Below are positions 8,323 to 49,831 of a stretch of 56,681 nt of DNA, piece by piece. Below the pieces are notes generated by a model. The model saw only the letters and a list, made by a program, of their open reading frames with translations. It was not told the origin of the DNA and searched no databases. The DNA is taken from contig JACMNL010000115.1 in NCBI GenBank assembly GCA_014378525.1, positions 1-56,681 on the forward strand. The letters are read 5' to 3'. The position numbers and the translations under genes were made by a program. The DNA is from Bacteriovorax sp. (lineage in GTDB: Bacteria; Bdellovibrionota; Bacteriovoracia; Bacteriovoracales; Bacteriovoracaceae). Numbering within the stretch: position 1 is the first letter of the stretch; each line of letters opens with the position of its first letter.

Positions 8323-8350
8323 AAGCCTCGATTTACTCGAGGCTTTTTTA
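8323..8350 (+). terminator. Terminator after tRNA-Asp
   Basis: AAGCCTCGA (8323-8331) and TCGAGGCTT (8337-8345) form a 9-bp perfect stem with a five-base loop, followed by TTTTT. Confidence 0.88.
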
Positions 8351-8366
8351 TTTTAGGGATCACTCT

Positions 8367-8720
8367 ATGAAAATTATTCTTCTACTTGTTCTAGTTATTC
8401 CATCAATTGCATTAGCTGAAAAACAAATGACAAAAAAAGACATGTCAGTATTGGGGAAGATTGATGCTTCTAATTTTCAGCAACAACCGAATGAGAAAAA
8501 GCCTGATGCTGTGATTGAATCGAAAAAAGAAGTTGCGACGATGAATTGCAAAGATAAAGCTGGTGTTGTTTATAACCAGGGCCAGGTTGGTTATGATAAT
8601 TGCCTGAACGATTTAAAAAACAGAAGTGACTTCAGCAAAAAAAATTCCGGCGTTAATGTTAACAACAGCAATAATAAAGACGGATCGGGTGCAGGAATCA
8701 ATTTTAAAATTGGTGATTGA
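8367..8720 (+). CDS. Small secreted protein, unknown
   Basis: A 117-residue exported protein. A signal peptide spans residues 1-18 (MKIILLLVLVIPSIALA). The mature chain is polar, with two cysteines in MNCKDKAGVVYNQGQVGYDNC that probably form a disulfide, and an asparagine- and glycine-rich tail (NVNNSNNKDGSGAG) that looks unfolded. TAGGGA precedes the start. No family is recognised. It lies between the tRNA terminator and a convergent chemoreceptor gene and is probably monocistronic. Confidence 0.72.
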   Translation: MKIILLLVLVIPSIALAEKQMTKKDMSVLGKIDASNFQQQPNEKKPDAVIESKKEVATMNCKDKAGVVYNQGQVGYDNCLNDLKNRSDFSKKNSGVNVNNSNNKDGSGAGINFKIGD

Positions 8721-8740
8721 TTCCCGCACGACAACTCCTG

Positions 8741-10432: not shown

Positions 10433-10543
10433 AATTTCCTCATGGTGATGTTTACAAAAAATTCTTCGGTTTAATTTTCCGTTTTAACTTTTTTATAATT
10501 CATATAAGGGTGAAATTGATGTTAACTAAAGTTTCGAAAAGTT

Positions 10544-10600
10544 TTTTTCATGAAAAACATGATTTGAATCATTTATAAATCAGAGATTTAAAAAATCTCT
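10544..10600. repeat. Cluster of three inverted repeats upstream of the chemoreceptor gene
   Basis: Three separate palindromes stand in 57 bases: TTTTTCATGAAAAA (10544-10557), ATGATT-TG-AATCAT (10559-10572) and AGAGATTT-AAA-AAATCTCT (10582-10600). They lie 110-170 bases before the chemoreceptor start and could be protein-binding sites for its promoter. The last can also fold as a hairpin in RNA. No gene is seen between 10433 and 10719. Confidence 0.5.
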
Positions 10601-10662
10601 ATAATAAACATTGAGGTTGAATAAGGTGGAAGGCATACTGATAAATATGTGATTTAATTTAT

Positions 10663-10713
10663 GTTCCAATCCACCTTTCTAGAGCCTTTTCTCCCTGAAA
10701 GGTGTGTTGGAAC
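10663..10713. repeat. Long imperfect hairpin after the secretin-like gene
   Basis: GTTCCAA (10663-10669) pairs with TTGGAAC (10707-10713) and CACCTTTC (10672-10679) pairs with GAAAGGTG (10697-10704), giving a 17-position stem with one T-G pair and one mismatch. It lies seven bases past the stop of the 10720-11388 gene. No run of T follows on the minus strand, while TTTTC follows on the plus strand. It may protect or terminate the mRNA, or be part of a small RNA. Confidence 0.6.
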
Positions 10714-10719
10714 TTTTCA

Positions 10720-11388
10720 CTATTTTTTCTTTTCGTCATCTTTTTGAGCTTCTTTCTTACGGCCATTTTCTTTGCACTCAGACTTTTTATCTTCTCTAAA
10801 TTCAACTTCACGTACTTTGGCCGCTTCAATTTCTTCTTTCGACAACTCACGGTCAAAGCTTTTGATTAAACCGTATGCTCGAACTAAATTTGCGGCATTC
10901 TCTTGAATAGTGATCGATCCTGCTCCCTTTAGTTCAATGACCCTTGCATATCTGGACATGAAGGGACGTAATGAGTTGGCAGCTTCTCTTAACTGGCCAT
11001 TATTAAAATGTTTGAATTTAAAGCTCATCATATAATAGTCATAATTAGGAATTATTGAAGGTGGGGTTTCTGAATCTACATTTAGAGTTGGAAACATATG
11101 ATAACGTATGTCTCTGGCAGAAATAATCAAAAAAGTATCCTTTTCAGCAGTGGGAACTCTCGCATAGCCATTCAAACTTAAAATATAAGTAAAAAGAGTG
11201 TCAGCGTTTTCAGCATTCAACTGATTATTGGAAGTGTCTTTGACTCCGCCTTTAATTTCTTTGGGATCGTAAATATATTTTTTGGTTGTTAACTTACTCA
11301 CTTGCTCAATGCACTTATTTAAATCAGAGCAATTGTTTGCGTATACATTGAAGCTAAGAAACAATAAAAGCGTAAAAATGATTTTCAT
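10720..11388 (-). CDS. Periplasmic protein with secretin-type N domains, no pore domain
   Basis: A 222-residue exported protein. The signal peptide covers residues 1-17 (ending NVYA). Residues of about 25-100 resemble the N0 domain of type II secretion secretins (IYDPKEIKGGV, then a helix and LNGYARVPTAEKDTFLIISA), and about 118-180 resemble the N1 domain (FKFKHFNNGQLREAANSLRPF, SITIQENAANLVRAYGLIKSFD). The secretin pore is absent; instead the chain ends in a highly charged Lys/Glu tail of about 40 residues. GAGGA precedes the start. It follows the 11406-12011 gene after 17 bases and probably shares its transcript. It could scaffold or modulate an envelope machine. The fold assignment is by eye. 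Confidence 0.65.
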   Translation of the reverse strand: MKIIFTLLLFLSFNVYANNCSDLNKCIEQVSKLTTKKYIYDPKEIKGGVKDTSNNQLNAENADTLFTYILSLNGYARVPTAEKDTFLIISARDIRYHMFPTLNVDSETPPSIIPNYDYYMMSFKFKHFNNGQLREAANSLRPFMSRYARVIELKGAGSITIQENAANLVRAYGLIKSFDRELSKEEIEAAKVREVEFREDKKSECKENGRKKEAQKDDEKKK

Positions 11389-11405
11389 AATATCCTCTGT
11401 TTTAA

Positions 11406-12011
11406 TTAATACTCAAGACTTTCTTTAAAATCTGGAATGCTGCCTTCATAAATAATTTTTTTCCATTCGCTAATTTTTTTATTGCTAAAAGAACTATCGG
11501 TCCATAATTTCAAAGAGGCATCCAAATAATCCATAACTGCATTCTTCTGACCAAGTTTCAGTAGCTCTTTTGCAAGGGTCATATTCGGTCCAGGTGATTT
11601 AATTTTTTCAGGGCCATAAAGTTTTGTAGAAGCTTCAAGGAAACTCATTCCACTCTCGATATCACCGGCAAACAAAGCAGCTCGCCCAAGTGAGATATTT
11701 GCATGATGGACGGCATCAGCATAAAGTGAATTTTTCCTATGACTGCCAGACATCATTAACAATGAGTTCGCATTGTCTTTTACATTGATAACGTTTTTAC
11801 TATTAATTACATAACTCTCTGAAGAATATTTTTTTACAATTTCATTCAATAGTAAAAAACGATCTTCATTCTTATGAGTGTTTCTTAATCTTACTTCTAA
11901 ATCCAAAGTTGGGTCTTTTTTATTGGCCACAAATCCATTGCCTACGACACGTGGACCAGCGTGCAATGAAAATGAAATTAGCATAATTATGAAAGCGATA
12001 TTCCTTTTCAC
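11406..12011 (-). CDS. Secreted protein with helical repeats, unknown
   Basis: A 201-residue exported protein with a signal peptide at 1-18 (MKRNIAFIIMLISFSLHA). From about residue 85 it is helical, with segments such as ANISLGRAALFAGDIESGMSFLEAS and LAKELLKLGQKNAVMDYLDASLKLW (given in part) that recall TPR-like pairs. The start is GTG and directly abuts the stop of the TIGR02147 regulator (TAAGTG), with AGGAGA inside the regulator's end, so it is translationally coupled to it. Function is unknown; the pairing suggests it is the regulated output or a partner of that regulator. Confidence 0.75.
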   Translation of the reverse strand: MKRNIAFIIMLISFSLHAGPRVVGNGFVANKKDPTLDLEVRLRNTHKNEDRFLLLNEIVKKYSSESYVINSKNVINVKDNANSLLMMSGSHRKNSLYADAVHHANISLGRAALFAGDIESGMSFLEASTKLYGPEKIKSPGPNMTLAKELLKLGQKNAVMDYLDASLKLWTDSSFSNKKISEWKKIIYEGSIPDFKESLEY

Positions 12012-12830
12012 TTAGTTCTCCTTTGAACCTGAATCTAATCTAAAAAGCTGTATGGATAATTGGCAAACCGAATCTTTAACTGAATTTTCAGTATAAAACT
12101 TATCAGCAAAATCTTTCTGAAACTGCCTGATAAATTCTTTTGCTTCAGTCATTTGTGATTGAGTAAAAGCAAGAGTCATATTCAAGAACTCTCTTTCATT
12201 CACGTGATCAAAGTACAAAGCATGTTCTGCTTTTTTTAATATTTCTTCATGGAATTTTTTTATTGAGAGAGAAGATATATCATAGGTAGTTTCACTTTGG
12301 TCATAACTGGCCTTGTATTTGCCATTTTTAAAAGTGATCCAATTAATCTTTTGTAATCTAAGAAGTGCAGATTTTATAACGGATTTATTCAAACTTAATT
12401 TTTCAGCAAACCATTCAATGGAGTGATCACAATCTCTAAGTTCAATTAATTCTAAAATTGCCAGATGATACCAATTATTGGCCAGCTCAAACTCTGCATA
12501 ATCTATCTTTTGGACAATTTTCATAGATTTTAATTTTTTCTTTAATGAAGTAACTGCTTCTTTTTTATCTTTATCACTGCGTGCATGAAGCGCTTTGGCA
12601 CTTAAAATAAAAACTTCAATTTCGTTTTCACTAAATCCAAGATTGGTTGCAATCTTTCTGGCAGCATCTGCTGATAGGCCTTTTTTGTAATTTATGATAT
12701 CGGATAATCGTGATGGTAAAATTTCCAGATCTCTAGCATAAGCTCGAAGTGAATAATTCTTATTTTTCAGGTTACGAATTTCAAATTGTCGCTTTAGTTC
12801 AACGACATAATCGTATTTCTCGTTTTGCAT
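12012..12830 (-). CDS. TIGR02147 family regulator
   Basis: A 272-residue soluble protein. An N-terminal helix-turn-helix lies at about 22-62 (LRAYARDLEILPSRLSDIINYKKGLSADAARKIA in parts), followed by the helical body typical of TIGR02147 (ILELIELRDCDHSIEWFAEKL, then a second winged-helix-like section near 135-170). The family is found mainly in Bdellovibrionota and Fibrobacteres, and its members are thought to be transcription regulators. It heads a transcript with the abutting secreted-protein gene and probably 10720-11388. The upstream spacer holds palindromes that could be its own operator. A second member is at 53367-54164. Confidence 0.85.
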   Translation of the reverse strand: MQNEKYDYVVELKRQFEIRNLKNKNYSLRAYARDLEILPSRLSDIINYKKGLSADAARKIATNLGFSENEIEVFILSAKALHARSDKDKKEAVTSLKKKLKSMKIVQKIDYAEFELANNWYHLAILELIELRDCDHSIEWFAEKLSLNKSVIKSALLRLQKINWITFKNGKYKASYDQSETTYDISSLSIKKFHEEILKKAEHALYFDHVNEREFLNMTLAFTQSQMTEAKEFIRQFQKDFADKFYTENSVKDSVCQLSIQLFRLDSGSKEN

Positions 12831-12869
12831 TATTAATTTATATTTTATTATTAAATCAATTGCAACACC

Positions 12870-12951
12870 TTAGTGAACAAAGTGTACACTAAAGTATTCA
12901 GCTTCGGTGAACACTTGCTTGAAATGCTAAAATGTCATAAATTTACGTCAT
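12870..12951. promoter_or_regulatory. Candidate operator region of the TIGR02147 gene
   Basis: The 128-base spacer upstream of the regulator contains AGTGTACACT (12881-12890, perfect palindrome), nested in TTAGTG (12870-12875)...CACTAA (12887-12892). Related heptamers GTGAACA, GTGTACA and GTGAACA start at 12873, 12882 and 12907. A 20-base imperfect palindrome centred on TAAATTTA spans 12932-12951 (16 of 20 positions symmetric). This pattern suggests dimeric repressor sites. Confidence 0.45.
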
Positions 12952-12958
12952 TATTCAA

Positions 12959-14320
12959 TTAAAGAGTTTTGCCTAAAAGGAACGTGTTAATTTGTTTTGA
13001 TGAGTTCTGGCATCCACCAAACTTCTTCCCTTCAACAATTTTTTTGAAATACATAAACATATCATTCTTAACTCTCTCGTTAAGAGAATCACTCGCCGAC
13101 ATGTTAAGTTTTGCTTTTAAAACCGGAAATGAAGTGTTCATCAATCGCCCTTCGCTGTAACTGAGGTCGAAGGTTTTTGTGTACTCTGGAAGCAGGAAAT
13201 TTTCCCAGATTATTGAGACTTCTTTCGGATTTAATGAGGCCGGTGCTTCGTTAATCTTCACCATAACTTCATCAACTGATTTTACCTTCATCATTTCATT
13301 AGTCCATGCCCAGGCCTCTTTCCAGTTGGCATTGCCTTTTAGAGCAACCATACTTTCACTGAACTGAAGCTTGAACTTGTCTTCGATTGAAGAATCTTTA
13401 AGTGCAAAGATATGACTTGAGATCATTATAGTCTTAACTGCTTTATCCATTTTCTCTTCTGATATAACCCAGTCGATATAAGAATCTGAGATTGAATTTG
13501 TTGTCAGGAAATTTTGGATACTTTGAAAGTTTAATGCTTTTTTATTGAAATCCAATTTTTGATACACAATATTCTTCCATGTTTCTTTTTGTAAAATTAA
13601 AGCTTGTACTCCAGTTTCATCTTCTCTGACAGGAAAAATGAAATCTGTCGGGTCATGCAAATGCATATTCTTTAGTAACGATTCTTGTTGTTTTTGATAA
13701 GCTTCAAATTGAATTTTTCCACCCAAAACTTCAGTCAGCGTTTTCTTCAACTGAATTTTATCAATATAACTTGGAATCATCATGAATAAAAATGAGAATG
13801 GAGCGAGGCCAACAACAGGGGCCAGAAAAGAGAGTCCGATGTTCGATAAGATCATTGGCAGGCCGATTTTTACAATATCACCAATGATAAATGCAGCAGC
13901 AACTCCTGGACCTTTCTTTTTAAAGAAGACTTCGATACCTACTCTGCTCTTTTTCATCAAAGGGATTACATTGTCCCAGCGAAGCGACATGAAAGCTAAT
14001 TTGAAAATATTCTTTTTTTCTTTTGGAATTTCCAGCGACTTTACAAAAAATTCTTCATAGATGAGAATTTTTTGCTTCAACAACCCGCTTATTTTTTCTG
14101 GTTTGTTAAACAGGTTCACATCATTTTGAGTCTCACGATCAATCTGCTCCCCGACTTCCAGCATGAGCTTGGTAAACTCGGCCTGCATTTTGAAATCTTT
14201 TTCCAGGGTGACAATATCAGAGGCAGTCATCTCACTTGCTGGAATTGACTGGGCCATGGACTGACTTATCAGAAGTGTAGAAAGGATGGCCGCTATAAAT
14301 GATCGGATCAGATTTACCAT
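12959..14320 (-). CDS. Large exported protein, unknown
   Basis: A 453-residue protein that I do not recognise. A signal peptide spans about 1-23 (ending SQSMAQ). The chain is largely helical, with a hydrophobic central part at about 140-185 (VAAAFIIGDIVKIGLPMIL and FLAPVVGLAPFSFLFMMI) that may be two membrane segments or a hairpin. The rest is charged and soluble, with a Cys-containing end (GGCQNSSKQ). Its upstream spacer toward the divergent lipoprotein gene is only 48 bases. Topology suggests an envelope protein facing the periplasm; no enzyme motif is seen. Confidence 0.7.
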   Translation of the reverse strand: MVNLIRSFIAAILSTLLISQSMAQSIPASEMTASDIVTLEKDFKMQAEFTKLMLEVGEQIDRETQNDVNLFNKPEKISGLLKQKILIYEEFFVKSLEIPKEKKNIFKLAFMSLRWDNVIPLMKKSRVGIEVFFKKKGPGVAAAFIIGDIVKIGLPMILSNIGLSFLAPVVGLAPFSFLFMMIPSYIDKIQLKKTLTEVLGGKIQFEAYQKQQESLLKNMHLHDPTDFIFPVREDETGVQALILQKETWKNIVYQKLDFNKKALNFQSIQNFLTTNSISDSYIDWVISEEKMDKAVKTIMISSHIFALKDSSIEDKFKLQFSESMVALKGNANWKEAWAWTNEMMKVKSVDEVMVKINEAPASLNPKEVSIIWENFLLPEYTKTFDLSYSEGRLMNTSFPVLKAKLNMSASDSLNERVKNDMFMYFKKIVEGKKFGGCQNSSKQINTFLLGKTL

Positions 14321-14368
14321 GATGAACTTTTCGGTAAACTTCCGTGCAATATGAGTCGATAAGTTTGT

Positions 14369-14728
14369 ATGAAGTTGGTTTTAATTTTTACATTAATTAC
14401 CCTGGCGTCCTGCTCAACTACTCCTGTTATTGACAGAGGTCCCGCTGCTGTATCAGATGATAATGTCTGCACGAGTGGCGTGAAAAACTTCTTTGATAAT
14501 GGTGTGAATTCATCTTCAAAAGAAGACCTGCTTTCGAAGAAGGTAATTTTACAGAAAGATTTAAAATTTCTTGATGGATCTGTCATCGCAAAGTCTTTAT
14601 CTGATAATCCGAATGACCGTGAACAGATGGAAATCAGTTATCTTTTAATCAAAAAACAGTACCCTGACTTCTCTGAAGAACAGGTTGTTAGTCACTATGA
14701 ACTTCTTAAAGTTTACTGTGGAATGTAG
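14369..14728 (+). CDS. Small lipoprotein, unknown
   Basis: A 119-residue protein with a type II signal peptide: MKLVLIFTLITLASC has lipobox L-A-S-C with the lipidated Cys15 and STTP after it. The mature part is polar; a helical C-terminal half holds QMEISYLLIKKQYPDF. No family is recognised. It is divergent from the large exported protein, with 48 bases between the starts, so the two may share regulatory sites. No clear ribosome-binding site is seen. Confidence 0.72.
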   Translation: MKLVLIFTLITLASCSTTPVIDRGPAAVSDDNVCTSGVKNFFDNGVNSSSKEDLLSKKVILQKDLKFLDGSVIAKSLSDNPNDREQMEISYLLIKKQYPDFSEEQVVSHYELLKVYCGM

Positions 14729-14740
14729 TCATCATGTCAG

Positions 14741-14774
14741 AAAAAGACGGCCATTCTCTTAAGGAAAACGGCCG
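14741..14774 (-). terminator. Terminator of the 14782-15171 gene
   Basis: On the minus strand CGGCC (14773-14769) pairs with GGCCG (14752-14748), with further A-T and G-T pairs toward a TTAA loop, and TCTTTTT follows at 14746-14741. Confidence 0.7.
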
Positions 14775-14781
14775 AAAGAAA

Positions 14782-15171
14782 TTATTTAGATTCGATAGTA
14801 ATTTTTGAATCAGAAGGAACTAATACTAGAGCTGATCCACCATATTTAGTTTTAACAACTACATTGAAGCTGATTCCAGAAGTTTCAACACGGTCAGTAC
14901 CAGGCAGACACATATTCATAGTGTGAGCTAACATTTGTTTTGTAACGATGATTTCACCTGTAACAAGTGTACTTTTTGAGTAACGTTCACTCAGTCCGTG
15001 GCAGTCAACTTTTCTGTCTTCAACATCAACTTTAACAGTGATTGTTGCAGGTTTATCAGTGTTGATCAGGTATTGTTCGAATTCTTTTTTCTCAGTGTAA
15101 GAACTAAGTTTAACTTCTGCAAACGAACTGAAAGAAACTAAAAAAAGTGCAGCGCATACGATCTTTTTCAT
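14782..15171 (-). CDS. Secreted protein of about 129 residues, unknown
   Basis: An exported protein, signal peptide MKKIVCAALFLVSFSSFA. The mature part is beta-rich, with alternating hydrophobic residues (ATITVKVDVEDRKVD, ISFNVVVKTKYGGSALVLV) and two cysteines (CHGLSER, NMCLPGTD) likely to form a disulfide. It resembles a small periplasmic beta-sandwich. I start it at 15171, where GGAG is eight bases upstream; an upstream TTG would add four residues without support. It has its own terminator, so it is probably a single-gene unit. Confidence 0.75.
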   Translation of the reverse strand: MKKIVCAALFLVSFSSFAEVKLSSYTEKKEFEQYLINTDKPATITVKVDVEDRKVDCHGLSERYSKSTLVTGEIIVTKQMLAHTMNMCLPGTDRVETSGISFNVVVKTKYGGSALVLVPSDSKITIESK

Positions 15172-39811: not shown

Positions 39812-40681
39812 ATGATTAAAGTATTTACCACGAGAAAAGATTTCGATCACTACGGAAGCACGCTTACGACTCAGACTATCGGGCTGGTTCCGACAATGGG
39901 AAATCTACATAAAGGGCATGTTTCATTGATTGAAAAATCAAATGAAGATAACGATGTCACTATTGTTACTATTTTTGTAAACCCGAAACAATTCGGGCCG
40001 AACGAAGATTTTGATAAATACCCGAGAACGTTAGATGAAGACCTTGCAAAGATTTCGGGTGTTGCACTTTTAATTAATGCCAAAAAAGATTTAGTCGTTT
40101 TTGCACCGAGATCAGAAGAAAGTATTTATCCGAAAGGATTCTCTACAACCATTTCTGTGGGCCCGATGACCCAGAAATTTGAAGGCTCTGTTCGTCCTAC
40201 ACACTTTGACGGTGTAACGACAGTTGTGTATCAGTTGTTTTCAATTACAAAAGCTCACACGGCCTACTTCGGACAAAAAGATGTCCAGCAATGCCTGATC
40301 ATTAAAAAAATGGTGAAGGACCTTGAGATCCCGGTCAACATTCACATTATGCCAATCGTGAGAAACTCAGAAGGGCTTGCACTCTCTTCACGCAACCAGT
40401 ATTTATCTGAAAGTGAGCGAGTTGAAGCGATGGTTCTTCCGCATACGTTAGTAAAAGTGGAAAAACTTATCCGCACGAAACAGGATTACAAAACATTTGT
40501 GGCCGAGACTTTAAAAGCTGACAGCAAATGGGATTACCTCGAAGTTCTGGATTCATCGAATCTTGAAACTCCGAATGATTCGACGACTGAACTGGTGATC
40601 GTTGCTGCTTACAGAGCAGGCATGACCCGACTTCTCGACAATATTTTAGTTCCAATGAACGAAGGCAAAAAAACTATATGA
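39812..40681 (+). CDS. panC: Pantothenate synthetase
   Basis: This cytoplasmic ligase joins pantoate and beta-alanine with ATP to form pantothenate. The adenylation motif VPTMGNLHKGH (26-36) holds the HxxGH-like His33 and His36, and the later blocks FDGVTTVVYQLF, TAYFGQKDVQQ and GLALSSRNQYLS are all present. At 289 residues it is normal length. It starts two bases after coaBC, and its stop overlaps the hflX start (ATGA). Grouping with coaBC makes functional sense. Confidence 0.96.
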   Translation: MIKVFTTRKDFDHYGSTLTTQTIGLVPTMGNLHKGHVSLIEKSNEDNDVTIVTIFVNPKQFGPNEDFDKYPRTLDEDLAKISGVALLINAKKDLVVFAPRSEESIYPKGFSTTISVGPMTQKFEGSVRPTHFDGVTTVVYQLFSITKAHTAYFGQKDVQQCLIIKKMVKDLEIPVNIHIMPIVRNSEGLALSSRNQYLSESERVEAMVLPHTLVKVEKLIRTKQDYKTFVAETLKADSKWDYLEVLDSSNLETPNDSTTELVIVAAYRAGMTRLLDNILVPMNEGKKTI

Positions 40682-42012
40682 TGGATAACGAATTTAACAT
40701 TGACCCCGATTACCGCGCGACACTGGTCTCGATCGTATCTCCGAGTTTTCCGGACCATCAGACAGAGAGTGAATCAAGAAGATCAATTAACGAGCTCAGA
40801 GAGCTTTTAAGAACGCTTGGATTAAAGACAGGTGAAGCTCACATTCAAAATAAAAAAGAAATCGATCCTGCGAGTATTTTAGGATCGGGAAAATTAAAAG
40901 AGATAGCTGACGCTGCTAAAGCTGACGGGTCACAACTTCTGGTTTTTGACTTCGAACTAACGGCCCGTCAGATCACGAACATCAGAGAACTGACAGGACT
41001 TTCTGTTGTCGATCGAGTTCACGTTATTTTAGAAATTTTCGCGAAACACGCGCGTACAAAAGAAGCAAAGATTCAGATCGAAATTGCTCGCCTTCAATAC
41101 ATGCTTCCTCGCCTTGCGGGGTTCTGGACTCACTTAAACCGCCAGCGCGGTGGTGTCGGGGTTCTCGGTGGAGAGGGTGAAAAGCAGATCGAGTTAGATA
41201 GACGTATCATTCGCGACCGCATCGAGTTTTATAAAGAGGAATTAGTAACGTTAGCTAAACAAAGAGAAGTCAGAAAAAAACGCCGCGAGAACCAGGCCGT
41301 TACAGCTGCTCTTGTTGGTTATACCAATGCCGGAAAATCTTCGATCATGAACCGCTTGTGTAAAGTGGAAATTCTCGAAGAGAACAAACTCTTTGCAACT
41401 CTTGATTCAACTTATCGTATGCTGAATCCGGACACGAAGCCGCCGATGATTATGATCGACACTGTAGGATTTATTTCCAACCTTCCCAACACTTTGATCG
41501 ACGGATTCAAGACAACTCTCGAGTCTGCACTTGAAGCTGATCTTTTAATTATCGTGTGTGATATCTCTGACCCTCATTATGAAAAGCAACTGGATGTGAC
41601 GTACGAAGTTTTGAAGGAACTAAATGTTACAGACAAAGAAACTATTATCATCTTCAATAAAAAAGACCAGCTCGATGATGATCTGTTGAAGAAAATAGTT
41701 TTAAGAAAATACCCGAACAGCTTTTTAGTTTCCAGTTACGACCCGGAAGATATGGCGGCCCTTCGTAAACACATCGTTGAGTACTTTTTGTCCAAACAAG
41801 AGCACTACGATTTATTTATTCCTTATGAAGACGGAGCTTCGCACTCTGCGGTTATGTCGAAGACCAATGTGGTGACGACCAGCAACCACGAAAAAGGAAT
41901 CTTCTATCGTATTCGTGTGCCTGATTTTATTTTTGGAAATTTAGGTGTGCAGAAATATATTCTCGGCCCGAATGATGTTATGCCTGAAGAACCGGACTGG
42001 ACTACTTCTTAA
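40678..42012 (+). CDS. hflX: GTPase HflX
   Basis: HflX splits stalled 70S ribosomes under stress. The N-terminal HflX domain has DPASILGSGKLKEI at 63-76 and the Q-rich middle region LPRLAGFWTHLNRQRGG; the G domain has GYTNAGKS at 214-221, DTVGF at 261-265 and NKKD near 327. At 444 residues it is normal length. The start overlaps the panC stop. Its last 11 bases overlap a convergent small-peptide gene on the other strand. No hfq gene lies next to it, unlike in enterobacteria. Confidence 0.95.
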   Translation: MMDNEFNIDPDYRATLVSIVSPSFPDHQTESESRRSINELRELLRTLGLKTGEAHIQNKKEIDPASILGSGKLKEIADAAKADGSQLLVFDFELTARQITNIRELTGLSVVDRVHVILEIFAKHARTKEAKIQIEIARLQYMLPRLAGFWTHLNRQRGGVGVLGGEGEKQIELDRRIIRDRIEFYKEELVTLAKQREVRKKRRENQAVTAALVGYTNAGKSSIMNRLCKVEILEENKLFATLDSTYRMLNPDTKPPMIMIDTVGFISNLPNTLIDGFKTTLESALEADLLIIVCDISDPHYEKQLDVTYEVLKELNVTDKETIIIFNKKDQLDDDLLKKIVLRKYPNSFLVSSYDPEDMAALRKHIVEYFLSKQEHYDLFIPYEDGASHSAVMSKTNVVTTSNHEKGIFYRIRVPDFIFGNLGVQKYILGPNDVMPEEPDWTTS

Positions 42013-42091
42013 GAGCGAGAAAAACAGCGCCTGCAAAAATCGCGATTGTAAGAATGATGCCGGCGATTACAATTTTAGAATCTTTATCCAT
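42002..42091 (-). CDS. 29-residue membrane peptide at the end of the luxCE-like operon
   Basis: A very short gene: ATG at 42091, stop TAG at 42004-42002. It encodes a charged start (MDKDSK), one membrane helix (IVIAGIILTIAIFAGAVFLA, residues 7-26) and a Lys-Lys end. AGGAGT lies eight bases upstream of the ATG, a strong ribosome-binding site, and the gene starts 13 bases after the stop of the PaaK-like gene, so it is the last gene of that operon. Single-helix peptides like this often tune membrane transporters or enzymes. The function is unknown; the ribosome-binding site and position are the evidence that it is real. Confidence 0.7.
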   Translation of the reverse strand: MDKDSKIVIAGIILTIAIFAGAVFLALKK

Positions 42092-42104
42092 ATATCACTC
42101 CTGA

Positions 42105-43358
42105 TTATTGTTTTGATCGCATATCTATAATACGTTTTAACTTCCCCGTGCGGGAGTTATTTTCAAGGGTTTTTTGTTCCACGATTTCAATTTTAAGTGG
42201 GTGAATAAGATTTTTTTTCAAAAGTTCTTCATAACTGGTTTTATCTTTACTGAAAGCTTCGAGAACTCTTTTTTCAATTCCAGATCCTCTGGATAGATTA
42301 ACTCCGGCAATTTTTAGAACTAATTCATCTTTGTGATCAAAGTGTGTAAGCACCATCTGAAACTGTATTCCTGAAATTTCCGACAAGGACTTAATGATCA
42401 TTTCTCTTGTGTCTTCAAAATAAACACTCAGAGTTCCCAGTCTGGCCGCTTCTTCAGACCGCCCTTGAAGCTTAAACTTTCTATTGGGTACACCTTCATC
42501 TTCAAGCCACATCGCCATATCACCGGCGGGATAACGAATGATTGGCATGAGTTTTCTTGTGAGGTTAGTTAACAGAACTTTCCCCAGAATATTTTTTTCA
42601 GTGATCACTTCATTAGTATCCGGATCGACGATTTCAATAATACTGGCGTCATCATAGACTCTATGTTCATTATTGGCGCAGTCTCTGCTGGAATAACCTA
42701 TCATTCCCCCGTCAACGCTGGCGCATCCGATAGATGAAATTTTAATATCAGGAAAAATATTTCTTAAGGCCTGGTGCTGGTCATCGTATAGAGCTTCACC
42801 GCCAAAAAGGATTTTTTCTATTTTCAGCTTTGGAAATCTGGTTTTGTTGTATTTTTCCAGCATCGTTAGAATCGCGGAGGGTACACCCACGATAGTATTT
42901 ATTCCAAATTCTTCGATGATCTTTAAAATCTGTATATGATCAGTCTGCCCTGCAATCGGAAATTGAGTGATCTTCTTCTTTTCGGCCGGAATAAACTGAA
43001 GCGAATCTTTTATAAATAAAAATGAAGCATATAAATCACCGGCATAAAAAAGATTTCCAACTCTGTCACCATGATCCAGAATTCCTTCGCTCATCCCCCA
43101 TCCAAACGATGTGGTGTAGGCCATCCATTCAAGGTGAGTAAAATAAGAATATTTGGGAGCACCTGTGCTTCCACCGCTTTTAAAAACGATTCCATCCGGC
43201 GAAGTGGATGTCACAACTTCCGATTTCCAGAAATTCGTCTGATCAATAACCGGAAGATCTGAAAGATTGTCAGTCTTCGCATTTTTATACAATTCACGAT
43301 AGTAAGGTGAATGTTTTTTTGCGTGTTCAATAATTTCCTTCAACAACCATTTCTGCAT
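42105..43358 (-). CDS. PaaK-like adenylate-forming enzyme
   Basis: A 417-residue member of the phenylacetate-CoA ligase (PaaK)-like branch of adenylating enzymes. The nucleotide loop is SGGSTGAPK at 61-69, FYAGDLYASF follows, the A5-like region is GCASVDGGMIGY, and the C-terminal end SRTGKLKRIID carries the catalytic lysine position. It should activate a carboxylic acid as acyl-AMP for transfer to CoA or a carrier. It starts one base after the stop of the LuxC-PaaK fusion gene and resembles the second half of that fusion (matching SGGS.G.PK and NLFYAG.LY blocks), so the two are paralogues. AGGAA precedes the ATG. Confidence 0.85.
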   Translation of the reverse strand: MQKWLLKEIIEHAKKHSPYYRELYKNAKTDNLSDLPVIDQTNFWKSEVVTSTSPDGIVFKSGGSTGAPKYSYFTHLEWMAYTTSFGWGMSEGILDHGDRVGNLFYAGDLYASFLFIKDSLQFIPAEKKKITQFPIAGQTDHIQILKIIEEFGINTIVGVPSAILTMLEKYNKTRFPKLKIEKILFGGEALYDDQHQALRNIFPDIKISSIGCASVDGGMIGYSSRDCANNEHRVYDDASIIEIVDPDTNEVITEKNILGKVLLTNLTRKLMPIIRYPAGDMAMWLEDEGVPNRKFKLQGRSEEAARLGTLSVYFEDTREMIIKSLSEISGIQFQMVLTHFDHKDELVLKIAGVNLSRGSGIEKRVLEAFSKDKTSYEELLKKNLIHPLKIEIVEQKTLENNSRTGKLKRIIDMRSKQ

Positions 43359-43359
43359 A

Positions 43360-45879
43360 TTAATTCCTGTGATCTATGACACTTCTTAATTTCCCGGTGC
43401 TCGGATTGTGGGTCATTTCTTTTTTATCAACTATCGTGACATCAAAATCCATCACCAGGTCGAGATTTACGACTAAGTTTAAATCGGGGTATTCAGCTAA
43501 GAACATTTTCCGTAATGCTTCAGGAGTCTGCGCATCCTTAAGTTGATTTTCAACTTTGATTTCAACTTTTTCTTTTTTAAGCGCATCACCTGAAAAAAGA
43601 TGAAGTTGAATGGATCCTTCGAATTCCAGTTTATCGATCAGGATTTTTTGAAACTTCTGGTAACTTAAAAATGTGGTTCCTATTCTGAAGACATCACCGT
43701 GACGGCCGAGAAGTTCAAAACGAATTCCTCTTCTCCCGCATTCACATGCACCAACAAGCTCTTTACCCACATCCCCAATAGCATATCTCTCTATATTCTG
43801 ACCGTGACGGACTTTTGAAGTAAATAACAGCCTTCCAATTTCACCCAACTTAACAGGTTCATCTTTTTCCAGGTTTACGATTTCAAGGTCGTGAAGTTTT
43901 TCGTGTAAGTGGTGAACTCCTCCCGTGGAGAATTCACACTGATAAGCGAGTGGCCCTGCATCAACCGATCCATAGCTGGCCGATCTGACAATCTCAACAC
44001 CGTACTCGCGCATTAAAAAATTTCTTTGCGCTTCACTGAAGTGCTCGCCACCGTAAAATATTTTTTTTATTCCACGGTATTTTTTAAAGTCGTCATGATT
44101 CTCTTTGAACAACTGGATTAAGTACGACGGCATTCCTAAAAGAGTATCAACTCTATTATTAATGATGGTTTTTCCAACCAGGCCAAAGTCAGTGCTCGCT
44201 CCCATTGGAAAATGAACTGCATTTAATTTTTCGAGAATGGTAAAAAAGCTGATGAATCCCCCATAAAGAGATCCGGCATAAAATAAATTCATGCAACGGT
44301 CTGTTTTTGGATTTAATCCTGCGGCATAAAGTCCTTCACCTGCAAGTTCCATCTGACGGTTGTAATCCTGATACGTGAACACTGAAAGTTTTGGTTCTCC
44401 CGAACTTCCACCGCTGTAGAAAAACAAATCAGAGTATTCAGCTTTTACAATCTGGCACTGAAAATCTGCTTTTTCCATAATGGATGTGAGTCTTACCGGG
44501 GCAGGCGATTTCATATCTTCGAATGAACATTTATTTTTCATCATGGCCGAATCTTTCGAGTCGTGAAAATTAATTCTCTGGCAATATCTCTCGAGGGCGT
44601 AAACACCATCATGTGGCTCGCCTATATAACTGTCAGTCATTTCACCAATAGCTCTCACTCTCTGGGCCCCGGCCATAAAAAGATCTCTGGTCAAAGCTTC
44701 AACTTCCATCGCACTGGCCGCAATCCCTGCTGTCTGCAGATACATTTTAAGCGGACGAAGATGGTTAATCATTTTTGATCTGGGCATTGGCTTCAGCCAG
44801 ATTGTTCTGAAAAGTGGCGATGAACTTAAAGCAGAAGTGTCTTCAACATATATTCGCCAGTCATTTTGTGGAGAAACCACCAAGTGACTTCCGCCAAGAA
44901 TTGATTTCAATCTAACCTGTTCACGGGTCACAGTTAACTCAGCTGTTTCCTGAACTCCGGGCATAACTCTTTTCATTGTCGGAGAAATCATATTCAGTGC
45001 GGCCGATAATTGTTCTGCTACCTTTTTTAATTCTTCAAAATTAGTGTCTTCAATAAAAATCGTCTGCGGGCTCGAACATGCCATCTGTTCATTAAGACAG
45101 ATTTCATAGGCCATCTTTTTATAAACTTCAGCATTATTTTTTTGCGACTGGGTAATATAAGAAAATGAAATTTTGTGCCCCCACTCTACAATACGTGCAC
45201 CACGTGGGGCAATCTCGCGTATACTCTGAACACTTTCTTCTCCTCCCCAGGCAGAGATCACGTCAGCAATACTTAAAAAACTTTTTAAATACTCTTTTTG
45301 TTTTGAACTGATTTTTGCAATGTAAATATAATCTTTCAATGAACTGGTTGTATCCAGCCTGCAGAACTCTTCATAAAAAATTCCTGCGAACTGACTGTCT
45401 TTGTGAGCGAGTTTTAAAACGTTAACGTTCCCGCTCAATAAACCTTCCATCACTCCAAGGACTGCAAGCAGAGGTGAATTATTCGGTGTCACATGAACTA
45501 GTGTTCCCAGAGGATACCAGGCTTCAAAATGATTTTCGCGTGCATCCTGTCTCTTCAACTCAAAGGGATGTTCGCTTCCAAGTTCTCTTTTTAACTTTGT
45601 ACGAAGATGATCGATGCTTAAAAAATCAATCAGCCCCTGCATATTGATATCAACTTCATCACTCGCAATATCTTCTCTGCTCTTTAAATCAGACTCGAGT
45701 CTTTTATAAAATTTATCTTTCTTTAAAAGCTCTGCCTGAATTTTTCCGACGACATCAAATAGAAGATAGTGACTTAGCGGTGGTTTCGCCCACCAGTGAG
45801 CATTATCAACATGACCCATGAATAAGTTTTTAAACTCATCATCCGTCACCATTTTTCCCTGCCATAAATTCGTTGTCAT
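43360..45879 (-). CDS. LuxC-like acyl-CoA reductase fused to a PaaK-like domain
   Basis: An 839-residue fusion. Residues of about 90-440 form a LuxC-type acyl-CoA reductase (aldehyde dehydrogenase fold): WYPLGTLVHVTPNNSPLLAV, and Cys268 in NEQMACSSPQ as the acyl-accepting nucleophile. Residues of about 455-839 form a PaaK-like adenylating domain with YSGGSSGEPK at 488-497, NLFYAGSLYGGF, and the C-terminal STGKLRSVID lysine end. LuxC reduces an acyl thioester to aldehyde with NADPH. The start overlaps the LuxE-like stop (TAATG), with AGGGAAGG upstream. One chain could activate an acid and reduce it, or use two substrates. Confidence 0.85.
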   Translation of the reverse strand: MTTNLWQGKMVTDDEFKNLFMGHVDNAHWWAKPPLSHYLLFDVVGKIQAELLKKDKFYKRLESDLKSREDIASDEVDINMQGLIDFLSIDHLRTKLKRELGSEHPFELKRQDARENHFEAWYPLGTLVHVTPNNSPLLAVLGVMEGLLSGNVNVLKLAHKDSQFAGIFYEEFCRLDTTSSLKDYIYIAKISSKQKEYLKSFLSIADVISAWGGEESVQSIREIAPRGARIVEWGHKISFSYITQSQKNNAEVYKKMAYEICLNEQMACSSPQTIFIEDTNFEELKKVAEQLSAALNMISPTMKRVMPGVQETAELTVTREQVRLKSILGGSHLVVSPQNDWRIYVEDTSALSSSPLFRTIWLKPMPRSKMINHLRPLKMYLQTAGIAASAMEVEALTRDLFMAGAQRVRAIGEMTDSYIGEPHDGVYALERYCQRINFHDSKDSAMMKNKCSFEDMKSPAPVRLTSIMEKADFQCQIVKAEYSDLFFYSGGSSGEPKLSVFTYQDYNRQMELAGEGLYAAGLNPKTDRCMNLFYAGSLYGGFISFFTILEKLNAVHFPMGASTDFGLVGKTIINNRVDTLLGMPSYLIQLFKENHDDFKKYRGIKKIFYGGEHFSEAQRNFLMREYGVEIVRSASYGSVDAGPLAYQCEFSTGGVHHLHEKLHDLEIVNLEKDEPVKLGEIGRLLFTSKVRHGQNIERYAIGDVGKELVGACECGRRGIRFELLGRHGDVFRIGTTFLSYQKFQKILIDKLEFEGSIQLHLFSGDALKKEKVEIKVENQLKDAQTPEALRKMFLAEYPDLNLVVNLDLVMDFDVTIVDKKEMTHNPSTGKLRSVIDHRN

Positions 45880-47045
45880 TATGACGCCTTCCCTTTTAGA
45901 AGTTCTGAGGCCGCAAGAGCACAGCTTTTATTCTTTGAAACTCCGGCACGGCCGTGAATCCTGAAATAAGGTGTGTTCATTCCACATTTACAATTTTCAT
46001 GAAGAGAAGCTAAGTCCCCCATGATCACAGAGTGGGCAGGCATACTTGTAATATAGGGTGAAACAAAATGCAGAAAACCTTTTTTATCAAAACCAAGTGG
46101 CTTCAATGTATCGACTTCGCGGATAAAAACACGTGACCATACAGGAACATGGAATTCATGATTCGAGCATTCAACGTAAGGAATGCAATGCTCAACTGAA
46201 CCAAACCCGTCGCGAAGCCTGGCATTGGGAATTCCCAGCATCTCTTCCGCTAAACTATACAGGTCATTTTTTTCAATCGCTTTATCAGCATGGCCTTTCC
46301 ATCCACCGCCTAAAAACACCAGTGAATCTTTATGAAATTTTAACGGAGGTAATCCAAGTTTTTTCATTCTTTCCAGTGCGAAATAAAAGAAGGCGGGAAA
46401 TCCAAAAAGCCTGACTGGTAAACCCTGGTCAGCAAAACGTTTGAAAGCTTCAATCGTACCGAAGACATCAAACTCATGTCCTCCGCTTCCTGTAAATTTA
46501 AGCGACGTAAAAACTTCGTTCACAGGTGCATACTTACAAAGAAAGTTATCCGTATAAGAAGTCCCGAGTTTTGAACTCTCTTCAGTCTGATAACTGAAAA
46601 GAATATAATTGCACTTCTGTTCAGGAGTTACCCATTGGTATTTTTCAAAAATAGCATCGACCATTGCCTGAGCAGACCTGATTGTCCATTCATCAAAAAA
46701 GATCTGAGACTTTTGTCCGGTCGTTCCCGAAGATGTTAAATGCAAAAATACTTCAGAAGGCGGAATGGATAATATCTCATTGCCTTTAAAAAAATGCGCC
46801 CACAGATGAGGGATTTTTAAACAATCCTCCATCGTCTTTACATCATCAGATTTAAAGTTCTGTGACTTTGAAAGGTCTCTGTAAAAATCACTTTTTTCAA
46901 TATGCCATGAGCTGATTTCTTCCATCGCTTTTAAAAACAGCTCATCACTTTTTTTAAAGTCATTATAAGGATCACTTTGATCACAAAGCTCCTGCACATG
47001 ACTTAATTTTTTAGCATCGGGAACAACAAGCTTATTTGTTGCCAT
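45879..47045 (-). CDS. LuxE-like acyl-protein synthetase
   Basis: A 388-residue enzyme of the LuxE family. In light-emitting bacteria LuxE activates a fatty acid as acyl-AMP, takes the acyl group on a C-terminal cysteine and hands it to LuxC. Here the nucleotide loop is TSSGTTGQK at 104-112, FLGGGWKGHADKAI is at about 247-260, and GSVEHCIPYVEC follows. A cysteine in the expected place, Cys375 in KNKSCALAAS, could be the acyl carrier. The start overlaps the previous gene by 14 bases and has AGGTG upstream. Together with the next gene it makes a complete acid-to-aldehyde pair. Confidence 0.88.
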   Translation of the reverse strand: MATNKLVVPDAKKLSHVQELCDQSDPYNDFKKSDELFLKAMEEISSWHIEKSDFYRDLSKSQNFKSDDVKTMEDCLKIPHLWAHFFKGNEILSIPPSEVFLHLTSSGTTGQKSQIFFDEWTIRSAQAMVDAIFEKYQWVTPEQKCNYILFSYQTEESSKLGTSYTDNFLCKYAPVNEVFTSLKFTGSGGHEFDVFGTIEAFKRFADQGLPVRLFGFPAFFYFALERMKKLGLPPLKFHKDSLVFLGGGWKGHADKAIEKNDLYSLAEEMLGIPNARLRDGFGSVEHCIPYVECSNHEFHVPVWSRVFIREVDTLKPLGFDKKGFLHFVSPYITSMPAHSVIMGDLASLHENCKCGMNTPYFRIHGRAGVSKNKSCALAASELLKGKAS

Positions 47046-48198
47046 AGATCACCTCAATTGAATCCAGGTTGATCTGCTTCCAGGTATCCACATACTGATC
47101 GATAAAAGGTTTGAATTGTGAAATGACCGACATACCTCTGAAATTCAGCGGCTCCATCGTCCTGCTTAAAACAATATAGTCTTCAAACTTACCATCGACC
47201 TCTCTCATTGCCGGATAAATGGCAGATGGAACGAACTGACCTACTAGAAGCGGCTCAATAAACTGGGTCAGCTTTACGTTTAATAAAACTTCAATATAAG
47301 AAACCCCAATATCATCGAGTTGCATATATAAACTTGTAAGACTTCCACTCAACTCTTCAATAGGTTTTGTGGTTTTAATCAGAGTGCAGTAACCATCGCG
47401 TTTACTGAAGTATGCAAAAATTTCCATGCGTCCTTTTTTATCTGCGATTAACATGTTCGGGGTATGGAATGGAAAAAAACGGTCACGTGGATCAGGAAAT
47501 GTTTCCAGGAATTTTCTTAATACGTAATTGGGAGCGCGGATAATTTCGAATTCCCAAGCTTCATTCGTTGGCAGCGTCACCGGCACTGCTACTGGAACTA
47601 GTTTGGGAATTGAAAGATCAGGAACAAGATTCTGAAGGATTGAATACAACGGCAACAATGAAGCCGATACTTCCTTGACTGGAATTCTTTTTTCTAAAAG
47701 TCCTTTTCTGAATTTTGCAAACAACGTTACTGTTTCGTACTGGCTTAATCTGTGTGCATTGGGAAAAATCCCCAATGGAAGATAATGATTTTTAATGAAA
47801 ACGCGCTGAGGTCCTGCTGTCACTGTTCTCGTCGTTGCGTAGAGAGAGTTAAGCTCTGTCCCCTTCTCTAAAAAATGCTCACCGACATAAACAACTAAAT
47901 GATTTCCGATTTTATTTTTCTGAAATGCCGGATGAACGACAAGGCCCACGAGTTTCCCGATTTTATTTTCTTTATCGATCTCTGTGATAAGACAACCCGT
48001 AATCACTTTCTGGGTCATGTCTCTTGCAACTAAAACCAAATGCGATTCATTATCTAAGATCGCACGCGATAATAAATCAGGATCAGTTCCATAGGAGATA
48101 GGATATTTTCTTCCATACACCAGTCGATAGAGATTGATAATCTCATCCACATCACTGACGATGGCCTTTTCAATGATCTCGTTGTTTCCAAATTCCAT
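47032..48198 (-). CDS. GNAT-like N-acyltransferase
   Basis: A 388-residue soluble protein. The first 150 residues form a GNAT fold: IEKAIVSDVDEIINLYRLVYG, then VGLVVHPAFQKNKIGNHLVVYV, the acyl-CoA-binding loop (QKNKIG in place of the classic R/QxxGxG/A). The remaining 230 residues have no clear family but alternate strands and helices like a second, decayed GNAT unit. GGAAGGA precedes the start, which lies two bases after the MFS stop, and the LuxE-like start overlaps its end. It may transfer an acyl group to an amine in the same pathway. Confidence 0.75.
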   Translation of the reverse strand: MEFGNNEIIEKAIVSDVDEIINLYRLVYGRKYPISYGTDPDLLSRAILDNESHLVLVARDMTQKVITGCLITEIDKENKIGKLVGLVVHPAFQKNKIGNHLVVYVGEHFLEKGTELNSLYATTRTVTAGPQRVFIKNHYLPLGIFPNAHRLSQYETVTLFAKFRKGLLEKRIPVKEVSASLLPLYSILQNLVPDLSIPKLVPVAVPVTLPTNEAWEFEIIRAPNYVLRKFLETFPDPRDRFFPFHTPNMLIADKKGRMEIFAYFSKRDGYCTLIKTTKPIEELSGSLTSLYMQLDDIGVSYIEVLLNVKLTQFIEPLLVGQFVPSAIYPAMREVDGKFEDYIVLSRTMEPLNFRGMSVISQFKPFIDQYVDTWKQINLDSIEVIYGNK

Positions 48199-48200
48199 AT

Positions 48201-49421
48201 TTATCCTTCCTGAGGTTTAACTCTTAAAAAACTAGGCATAAAAAAAGCACTGACCATTGTGAGCATGCCGCAAATCAAAGCGAAGCGCGGGATATCGACA
48301 AGCGGAAATAAAATCCCGGAAATTGCAAAAGAGACCGGCATTGATGCCGCTGAAATAATATTGACTGCCACCATGATGGCCGGCACTTCATGTTCTTTAA
48401 GGGCGGTCTGGAAATAAGTAAGAACCTGCACGTTTAAAAACGTACTGAGGATTCCGATTAAAAATAAAAGAAAGGAAGCTTCGCCTGTCGATTTAGAGAA
48501 CGAAAATACCTGAAAAAATAATCCGAATAAAAAACACACGATTGCAATCATCCCGATGCGCTTATCCTCGCGAACTTGAATGGCGGTAAGAGATAAAAAC
48601 ATTCCGGTTAAAAAAGCACCGAGCCCCATCGCTCCTTCTATCGTCGCGAGGTCACTTCCCGTCCCCTTAAATACATTCGCTACATACCAAGGGATCATAA
48701 CGAGAATTGGAGTGAAAATTAAATTAATGAATAAAAAGCTCATCAGCATTCTTTTGATCGCCGGATATCTTTTCAAAACGGCCATCGGCCCTTCTGCTTC
48801 CTGTCCTTCCGGAATCGGCGCTTCAGAATGTTTCACGACAACTTTATTCTGCAGAACTGCTGCAAAAATAAAACTGCCCGCATTGATCATCACCAGCGCT
48901 TTAATATCAAAAAGATTTAATAAAAAAATCGAGCAGGCCGCTCCTAGAATATTTGAAATAGAAAAACTCGTATCGAGTAGTGCGTTCAGCGCCGGTACCT
49001 GTTCTGTCTCAACAAGAATCGGAGGCAATGATAAAATCGCCGGATTAAAAACACTCGATCCTATTCCCACTAAAAAAGCGGCAATAAATAAATACACTAA
49101 AAATATTGTACTTTTTTCAGGAACAAAAAACATTGAGATAAAAAACACCAACAAAACGGCACCTCTGAAATATTCTGTAGCAACGACAGTTTTTAAAATT
49201 CCATTACTACCGATAATTTTCGATGAATAAAAAGACATGAAGATGTGAGGAAGAAAACTAACGGCGAGAAACCAGGGAACGATGTTGATGGAGTAATTCT
49301 TCGTGAGATACCACACCAGCCCGATGGACATCATCTTGTCACACACCGTGGATAAGAGTTGAGAAACGAATACGATGAACGCATTCCTGTCCTGCAATAT
49401 ACCTAGTTTAAAATTTGTCAT
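48201..49421 (-). CDS. MFS transporter
   Basis: A 406-residue inner-membrane protein with 12 predicted membrane segments. Features include LGILQDRNAFIVFVSQLLSTVCDKMM at the start, the family-type GIGSSVFNPAILSLPPILVE after TM4, and PVSFAISGILFPLVD in the second half; it resembles the MFS_3 (enterobactin exporter-like) group. It is the first gene of the operon leading to the LuxE/LuxC-like enzymes, so it probably exports the pathway product. AGAGG lies just before the ATG. The upstream spacer (49422-49495) must hold the promoter, but I see no clear one. Confidence 0.88.
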   Translation of the reverse strand: MTNFKLGILQDRNAFIVFVSQLLSTVCDKMMSIGLVWYLTKNYSINIVPWFLAVSFLPHIFMSFYSSKIIGSNGILKTVVATEYFRGAVLLVFFISMFFVPEKSTIFLVYLFIAAFLVGIGSSVFNPAILSLPPILVETEQVPALNALLDTSFSISNILGAACSIFLLNLFDIKALVMINAGSFIFAAVLQNKVVVKHSEAPIPEGQEAEGPMAVLKRYPAIKRMLMSFLFINLIFTPILVMIPWYVANVFKGTGSDLATIEGAMGLGAFLTGMFLSLTAIQVREDKRIGMIAIVCFLFGLFFQVFSFSKSTGEASFLLFLIGILSTFLNVQVLTYFQTALKEHEVPAIMVAVNIISAASMPVSFAISGILFPLVDIPRFALICGMLTMVSAFFMPSFLRVKPQEG

Positions 49422-49495: not shown

Positions 49496-49831
49496 TCAGT
49501 CAATTAACGACAGCACTCTTTCAGCAAGATTATGGGCGATTATTGGCTTGGGTAGGAAACCTGTAACTCTCGAATCGAGAGAATTCTCTGAACCAGCGGG
49601 TCCCGAGGCGACTAAACGGACATGATTTGAGTACTCATAAAGCTTTTCAAGATCGGCCGGATTCTGGTCTAAATCAAAAATAACCAGATCAGGTTTAAGG
49701 TCATCGATTAAATAAAAATTTTCATTCAGAGTTTCAACGGTATAGATTTCCGCTTTCTTGGCACGAAGGGCCAATTCCATCATTGAACGCAAAAACTTTT
49801 CTTTTTCTACATAAAAAACTTTCTTTACCAT
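49496..49831 (-). CDS. Single-domain response-regulator-like protein
   Basis: A 111-residue receiver (CheY-like) domain alone. The phosphorylation site is Asp53 in DLVIFDLDQNP, and the conserved lysine is Lys95 in FLPKPI. The usual acidic pair after strand 1 is replaced by glutamates (YVEKEKF), so metal binding may be altered. It lies 74 bases upstream of the MFS operon on the same strand and may be co-transcribed with it, or independent. No histidine kinase is nearby. Confidence 0.8.
   Translation of the reverse strand: MVKKVFYVEKEKFLRSMMELALRAKKAEIYTVETLNENFYLIDDLKPDLVIFDLDQNPADLEKLYEYSNHVRLVASGPAGSENSLDSRVTGFLPKPIIAHNLAERVLSLID

Follow-up and report, generated by a model that had tools for sequence, protein, structure and literature searches.

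The DNA described here, a 56,681 nucleotide (nt) stretch of Bacteriovorax sp. (phylum Bdellovibrionota; contig JACMNL010000115.1) that was analysed in full and is called the window below, probably carries a leupeptin-type operon that would make and export an N-acylated short peptide aldehyde without a nonribosomal peptide synthetase (NRPS). Judging from gene content, the most likely product is an exported N-acyl peptide aldehyde acting as a protease inhibitor. Six minus-strand open reading frames (ORFs), from 49421 to 42002, encode a major facilitator superfamily (MFS) exporter, a GNAT N-acyltransferase, a LuxE-type acyl-protein synthetase, a fusion of a LuxC-type reductase with a PaaK-type ligase, a free PaaK-type ligase and a 29 amino acid (aa) membrane peptide (Table 1). 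The ORF coordinates agree with the tight packing, with overlaps or gaps of at most 13 nt, noted in the original prediction made from this DNA: 2 nt separate the MFS and GNAT genes, the GNAT and LuxE genes overlap by 14 nt and the LuxE and LuxC-PaaK genes by 1 nt, and gaps of 1 and 13 nt precede the free PaaK gene and the membrane peptide, respectively. The same prediction saw here a biosynthesis-and-export operon with acid-to-aldehyde chemistry, a view that the sequence supports on both counts, and proposed a lipid aldehyde, an alcohol or an N-acyl compound as product. The N-acyl option stands; the lipid part is not supported, because the enzyme set matches the named leup pathway, a match from which the acid to be reduced is most likely an N-acylated peptide.

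Table 1. Operon genes of the window and their counterparts in the Klebsiella michiganensis leup locus (L073; positions in that locus)
Locus	Feature	Position	Strand	Basis or remark
Window	MFS exporter, 406 aa, first gene of the operon	48201..49421	-	MFS_1 71.9 bits (Pfam cut-off 33.4)
Window	GNAT N-acyltransferase with GNAT-like second half, 388 aa; LeupD position	47032..48198	-	Acetyltransf_1 25.4 bits (cut-off 20.7)
Window	LuxE-type acyl-protein synthetase, 388 aa; LeupA counterpart	45879..47045	-	LuxE PF04443 104 bits (cut-off 24.9)
Window	LuxC-type reductase fused to PaaK-type ligase, 839 aa; LeupB counterpart	43360..45879	-	LuxC PF05893 294.3 bits (cut-off 21)
Window	Free PaaK-type adenylate-forming ligase, 417 aa; LeupC counterpart	42105..43358	-	NCBIfam PaaK-type models, best 8e-27, below cut-off
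Window	29-aa peptide, one predicted membrane segment	42002..42091	-	ORF reading
L073	MFS	7705-8964		In front of LuxE
L073	LuxE (leupA)	8992-10128		Contains first part of primer span
L073	LuxC-PaaK (leupB)	10130-12538		Primer span reaches its start
L073	PaaK (leupC)	12574-13914		Assigned by order and length
L073	GNAT (leupD)	13911-14828		Assigned by order and length

The original prediction counted a known, named pathway with the same gene set as evidence against its reading, and leupABCD with its transporter is such a pathway. The founding paper on the leup operon is reportedly that of Li et al. 2020. In their available text, PMC9177418 and PMC10676414 merely cite Li et al. 2020 for leup. The available part of PMC8283571 places leupABCD of K. 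michiganensis at 315,353 to 321,183, next to a transporter, and describes a primer pair, leupA_f and leupB_r, yielding a 1,235 bp product; according to this part and that of PMC11480411, leupeptin is the product of the leup genes. Scanning genome contigs with a LuxE alignment returned at least 549 relatives, the best 80 of which were kept; these include K. michiganensis, Photorhabdus, Xenorhabdus, Chromobacterium, Pseudomonas, Erwinia, Morganella and others. The leupA/leupB primers match the K. michiganensis locus with zero mismatches from 9053 to 10287, i.e., over 1,235 bases, and the interval from LuxE start to GNAT end measures 5,837 bases as against the published 5,831. The primers thus identify leupA as the LuxE gene and leupB as the LuxC-PaaK gene; it follows from order and length that leupC is the PaaK gene and leupD the GNAT gene. 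LuxE, LuxC/PaaK and PaaK occur in this order in 76 of the 80 best loci, the exceptions being three that run off their contigs (L089, L091, L101) and one with a shortened fusion (L071). Like the window, the leup loci of K. michiganensis, Photorhabdus and Xenorhabdus combine LuxE, LuxC-PaaK, PaaK, GNAT and MFS genes in one unit.

Protein comparisons by blastp agree with this assignment. LuxE of the window shares 51% identity with K. michiganensis LeupA and 50% with Photorhabdus luminescens LeupA, as opposed to 26% with a lux-type LuxE. The LuxC-PaaK fusion is 39% identical to LeupB of K. michiganensis (758 positions, covering both the LuxC and the PaaK domains) and 37% to that of P. luminescens, alignments to these and to a Streptomyces homolog (see below) extending over 756-787 positions; against lux-type LuxC the window LuxC reaches 25%. 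For the free PaaK protein the values are 39% (K. michiganensis LeupC) and 35% (P. luminescens). The lux-type reference, assumed to belong to a luciferase operon, comes from the same P. luminescens genome, where it is the LuxE that Pfam scores highest and lies about 3 kb from a LuxC. The LeupA, LeupB and LeupC counterparts, together with the adjacent transporter, suggest that the operon is most likely leup-type. The LuxC and LuxE families have one match each in the source genome.

The residues expected of a working reductase system are in place. As originally described, LuxE has its nucleotide loop (residues 105-112) and Cys375 (codon 45921-45923), and LuxC has Cys268 (codon 45076-45078). In the solved structure 7xc6, the LuxE and LuxC chains have cysteines at the aligned positions, which are the catalytic residues of the Lux enzymes. 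Loss of the LuxC cysteine in relatives was looked for and not found: the cysteine is conserved in 66/66 LuxC rows, as is its LuxE counterpart in 68/68 LuxE rows, lux-type rows included. The profile matches behind the PaaK assignments all lie below cut-off. The Pfam AMP-binding model scores slightly below its cut-off on both PaaK parts (29.8 and 29.5 vs 29.9), and PaaK-type NCBIfam models detect both more clearly, at 1e-15 to 1e-27, all under the models' own cut-offs. The PaaK-type parts also show weak, below-cut-off matches to the BagE/FevW and DdaG models, names that presumably denote amide- or ester-forming enzymes; by analogy, amide or ester formation by the PaaK-type enzymes is suggested.

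Gene order was compared across relatives of the host. With the GNAT as query, relatives were found in 49 of 144 related genomes, and 40 loci were taken from these matches. The order MFS-GNAT-LuxE-LuxC/PaaK-PaaK is kept in all 12 loci of the genus, the window's included; the two genomes of the genus without a match (out of 14) are both less than 90% complete. The operon is under purifying selection, the ratio of nonsynonymous to synonymous substitution rates (dN/dS) relative to L042 being 0.048 for MFS, 0.037 for GNAT, 0.036 for LuxE and 0.041 for LuxC-PaaK, values that are rough because dS exceeds 1; the free PaaK gene gave no computable value. Invariant order and low dN/dS therefore indicate that the operon is more than a chance arrangement. 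Conservation of gene order elsewhere, which the original prediction called for, is borne out by these loci, by the 76 genome-scan loci mentioned above and by those of two further families described below.

Other genera of the family carry the enzyme genes as GNAT-LuxE-LuxC/PaaK-PaaK (type I). A second arrangement (type II: GNAT, LuxE and LuxC/PaaK, with no free PaaK) was found in nine loci, L022-L030, and also in L189, L191 and L194; its product is perhaps shorter. Three MFS queries detected no adjacent MFS gene in the 15 other type I loci of the family or in the nine type II loci. Two loci, L036 and L061, have the GNAT alone, with no other operon gene beside it, and two more, L031 and L033, are cut by contig ends. 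A LuxE alignment matches 100 of 368 genomes of the phylum at E 1e-50; by our own count from the listing, 55 of the 368 have the close LuxE type (at least 455 bits), the other 45 scoring 345 bits or less. Twenty loci fetched from these matches were added to the gene-order comparison. Eight of them, from families f6 and f8 (L176-L183), are type I with the order GNAT-LuxE-LuxC/PaaK-PaaK preserved, and all except L177 have an MFS gene in front. The LeupB-type fusion is naturally split in L176 and L177, where adjacent ORFs encode LuxC and its PaaK partner. Seven loci (L184-L188, L190, L195) form a looser type III, typically composed of PaaK, a longer ORF that matches GNAT weakly (48-61 bits), LuxE and LuxC/PaaK, plus the usual GNAT; four of the seven have an MFS gene. 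The gene order of L188 departs from that of the other type III loci, from which it also stands apart in the LuxE tree. Finally, no GNAT accompanies the other genes in L192 and L193, the genome of L193 carrying one on another contig (L036). Overall, 12/12 loci of the genus, 3/3 Streptomyces loci, 2/2 loci of family f3 and 48/81 proteobacterial loci have a same-strand MFS gene no more than 9 kb away.

A tblastn search of plasmids found GNAT relatives in 4 records and LuxE relatives in 37. Streptomyces sp. NBC_00158 (L062) has, by annotation, the order PaaK-MFS-GNAT-LuxE-LuxC/PaaK, and two more Streptomyces loci (L063, L067) have the same parts by similarity. All five parts are thus common to the window and the Streptomyces set (identities to L062: LuxE 56%, LuxC-PaaK 42%, GNAT 37%, PaaK 36%), PaaK being the first gene in Streptomyces and the last enzyme gene in the window. 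Three genes with the annotation peptidase inhibitor family I36 lie just downstream of the L062 set (L062:13434-14801). Separately, a Salmonella enterica plasmid (L064:8578-14740) carries LuxE, LuxC-PaaK and PaaK genes, a broken GNAT and a short transporter ORF, followed by transposase-like ORFs.

Phylogenetic trees of LuxE, LuxC and the LuxC-linked PaaK part group the window's type with leup. A LuxE tree of 61 rows, built with 12 of the 81 proteobacterial loci and a selection of the remaining ones, long branches being flagged, contains a clade (support 100/98) that unites 25 type I, 12 leup and 3 Streptomyces rows with two others, L065 and L066. Types II and III, the lux-type row, Rhizobium and Priestia fall outside. 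Within type I, the leup and Streptomyces rows group together (94/97), with 86 to 91% support for the forks that place them there, and type I fails to form a single clade in 96% of 200 bootstrap trees. Quick trees, made with 22 of the 81 proteobacterial loci and short pieces dropped, gave similar groupings: that of LuxE (68 rows) agrees with the 61-row tree; that of LuxC (66 rows) groups two further rows with those of type I, leup and Streptomyces (97); and that of the LuxC-linked PaaK part (63 rows) unites type I, leup and Streptomyces against type II (97). Type II is not represented in the free PaaK tree (53 rows). The histidine of the LuxC WGHK motif follows the same division, being present in 22/22 leup, 3/3 Streptomyces and 23/27 type I rows and replaced by proline in 9/9 type II rows. 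We only infer the direction of transfer, because the root was placed on the lux-type row or at the midpoint.

A possible route runs as follows. The GNAT would transfer an acyl group from a CoA thioester onto the first amino acid. The free and the LuxC-fused PaaK-type ligases would adenylate the growing N-acyl acid and join the next amino acid to it. LuxE would then adenylate the finished peptide acid, hold it as a thioester on Cys375 and hand it to Cys268 of LuxC, which would reduce the peptide thioester to the aldehyde, and the MFS protein would export it. The aldehyde may block serine or cysteine proteases through covalent addition. Old work on Streptomyces roseus is said to have described a leucine acyltransferase, a leupeptin acid synthetase and an ATP- and NADPH-dependent leupeptin acid reductase; these activities would fit GNAT, PaaK and LuxE/LuxC, respectively. 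We infer product class, step order, assignment of ligases to bonds, export and target by analogy with leup. Covalent inhibition of serine and cysteine proteases by peptide aldehydes is described in the available text of PMC10548850.

Several observations weigh against the leup assignment or set the window apart from the known leup loci. The GNAT is the weak point of the assignment. The window GNAT precedes LuxE, whereas the leup GNAT comes last; it is only 22% identical to K. michiganensis LeupD (E 6e-4), has no significant blastp match to P. luminescens LeupD, and has K at a position of the loop following VHP that is G in most leup GNATs. A very long branch separates the leup proteins from types I and II and Streptomyces in the GNAT tree (64 rows). 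The exporter, too, is from another MFS group, giving by blastp no match to the Klebsiella MFS and a short one to the Streptomyces MFS, and the host belongs to another phylum. The P-loop lysine of the LuxC-linked PaaK part, kept in the window, is replaced in 10/27 type I and 3/3 Streptomyces rows. Two members of the LuxE clade have other surroundings: the Streptomyces LuxE-LuxC pair of L065 sits in a YcaO/DUF692 cluster, and in L066 (Chloroflexota) the pair stands alone. Clade membership alone does not fix the product, because these two loci do not have the full gene set; the presence of all four enzymes does more in that respect. The available portion of PMC10548850 attributes Streptomyces leupeptin to an NRPS, which leaves the Streptomyces operons short of proven leup operons. 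Lastly, the peptide aldehyde product of the operons of the phylum is a prediction drawn from genes alone.

The AlphaFold model of the window GNAT (27 rows; pLDDT 89, pTM 0.87) shows a GNAT domain and a similar second half. Its first Foldseek matches are small GNAT enzymes covering one half; among the 50 matches listed, the long acetyltransferase alignments are to histidine N-acetyltransferase (9emd, 9en3, 9emp), and the fit over both halves is loose, TM-scores being near 0.4 and root-mean-square deviations near 15. The modelled fold thus suits an amino acid N-acyltransferase, short of proof.

Divergence of the GNAT, the part that differs most from leup, is also an argument for a different end product of the same machinery, which would still reduce an N-acyl amino acid or peptide but yield an alcohol, a pyrazinone-type signal or a compound with a long acyl cap rather than a protease inhibitor. 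The available text of PMC11480411 adds that leup loci yield, besides leupeptin, a pyrazinone with signal-like effects; according to the same text, the pyrazinones derive from leupeptin itself. This and the presence of LeupA, LeupB and LeupC counterparts, all closest to leup and Streptomyces proteins, make such a product unlikely. A lipid aldehyde or alcohol formed from a fatty acid by lux-type chemistry is still less probable. The operon does share the LuxE and LuxC families and the two aligned cysteines with the luxCDABE fatty acid reductase (7xc6), but identities to the lux-type proteins are about 25% (26 and 25%), the lux-type row falls outside the clade, and the two ligases and the GNAT added here have no role in the lux route. 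The idea of a lipid aldehyde was set aside on identities and trees. The window operon has neither luxAB nor luxD. The claim that luxAB is absent holds, none being found in the operon by Pfam and no pair in the genome (93% complete), which has a single luciferase-superfamily ORF on another contig. Least probable of all is an aldehyde placed by LuxE-LuxC on a larger molecule, such as a sugar polymer or ribosomal peptide, within the cell or envelope: LuxE-LuxC pairs do occur beside YcaO/DUF692 genes (L065) and beside glycosyltransferase and DegT aminotransferase genes (Rhizobium L158), but the operon proteins gave no Pfam match to YcaO, DUF692 or glycosyltransferase, the L158 LuxE lies outside the clade, and an MFS gene recurs beside the gene set in several lineages.

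The L065 pair, on a Streptomyces europaeiscabiei plasmid (L065:5361-11507), neighbours YcaO, MBL-fold and DUF692 genes and perhaps serves to make a ribosomal peptide with an aldehyde. On a Rhizobium anhuiense plasmid (L158:3651-7131), DegT aminotransferase, LuxE-type and LuxC-type genes lie in a row, outside the leup clade.

An NRPS route was likewise rejected for the operon: a Pfam search found no condensation, carrier or reductase domains in its five proteins. In this the predicted leup-type pathway differs from those of the NRPS-made peptide aldehydes flavopeptin, antipain and chymostatin, to which, going by the available text of PMC10548850, its presumed product is alike in class. Elsewhere in the source genome, condensation domains occur on contigs C52 and C106, among them two in a 1884-aa open frame of an NRPS (G000:C52:55606-58554). 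A probe of the same genome for the histone-like family PF00808 came back empty, a result that leaves its taxon undecided.

The leup-type reading assigns an unnamed LuxE/LuxC operon to a concrete, testable product class: protease inhibitors of the familiar capped peptide aldehyde type. If it is correct, small-molecule protease inhibitors are also made in a phylum known for its secreted proteases, and the leup pathway extends, in greater variety, beyond the genera in which it was first described. Our searches of the open-access literature found no report of a leup-type operon in this phylum and no paper combining LuxE, LuxC and Bdellovibrio. The natural LuxC/PaaK split, like types II and III, offers material for assigning ligases to bonds. 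A bolder proposal, which we put forward tentatively and consider rather doubtful, is that Bdellovibrionota are the widest and perhaps oldest reservoir of NRPS-free peptide-aldehyde operons, that leup and the Streptomyces operons branch from inside its type I, next to which the phylum has a one-ligase type II and a two-GNAT type III, and that the aldehyde restrains the bacterium's own or rival proteases during prey digestion or becomes a pyrazinone signal. Published results on restraint of own proteases go both ways: according to the available text of PMC5288813, leupeptin, ALLN, antipain and chymostatin all fail to inhibit the Bdellovibrio protease BspK, whereas that of PMC6510308 reports that ALLN, antipain and chymostatin inhibit a crude B. 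bacteriovorus activity that cleaves IgA.

Membership of the 29-aa peptide in the pathway is doubtful. A similar peptide, of the MDKD or MNSD kind, lies within 300 nt of the PaaK stop codon in 7 of the 12 loci of the genus, counting the window. The end of the peptide ORF overlaps the 3′ end of a convergent hflX-like ORF (40678-42012); hflX is present within the fetched stretch in 10 of the 12 loci. Scans for promoter-like sites (28, vs 19.7 with standard deviation 4.8 in shuffled sequences) and terminator-like sites (6, vs 6.6) carry no weight in the interpretation. Away from the operon, positions 10001-14000 of the window have a G+C content of about 33%, compared to about 40% over most of the window; a 453-aa ORF in this stretch (12959-14320) has no Pfam match at 0.001. 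Upstream of the operon and on the same strand, a 111-aa response-regulator-like ORF (49496-49831, minus strand; PF00072 19.1 bits, under the cut-off) is separated from the MFS gene by 74 nt. Members of this family precede the MFS gene in 10 of the 11 other loci of the genus; the remaining one, L049, is truncated at the start of its contig.

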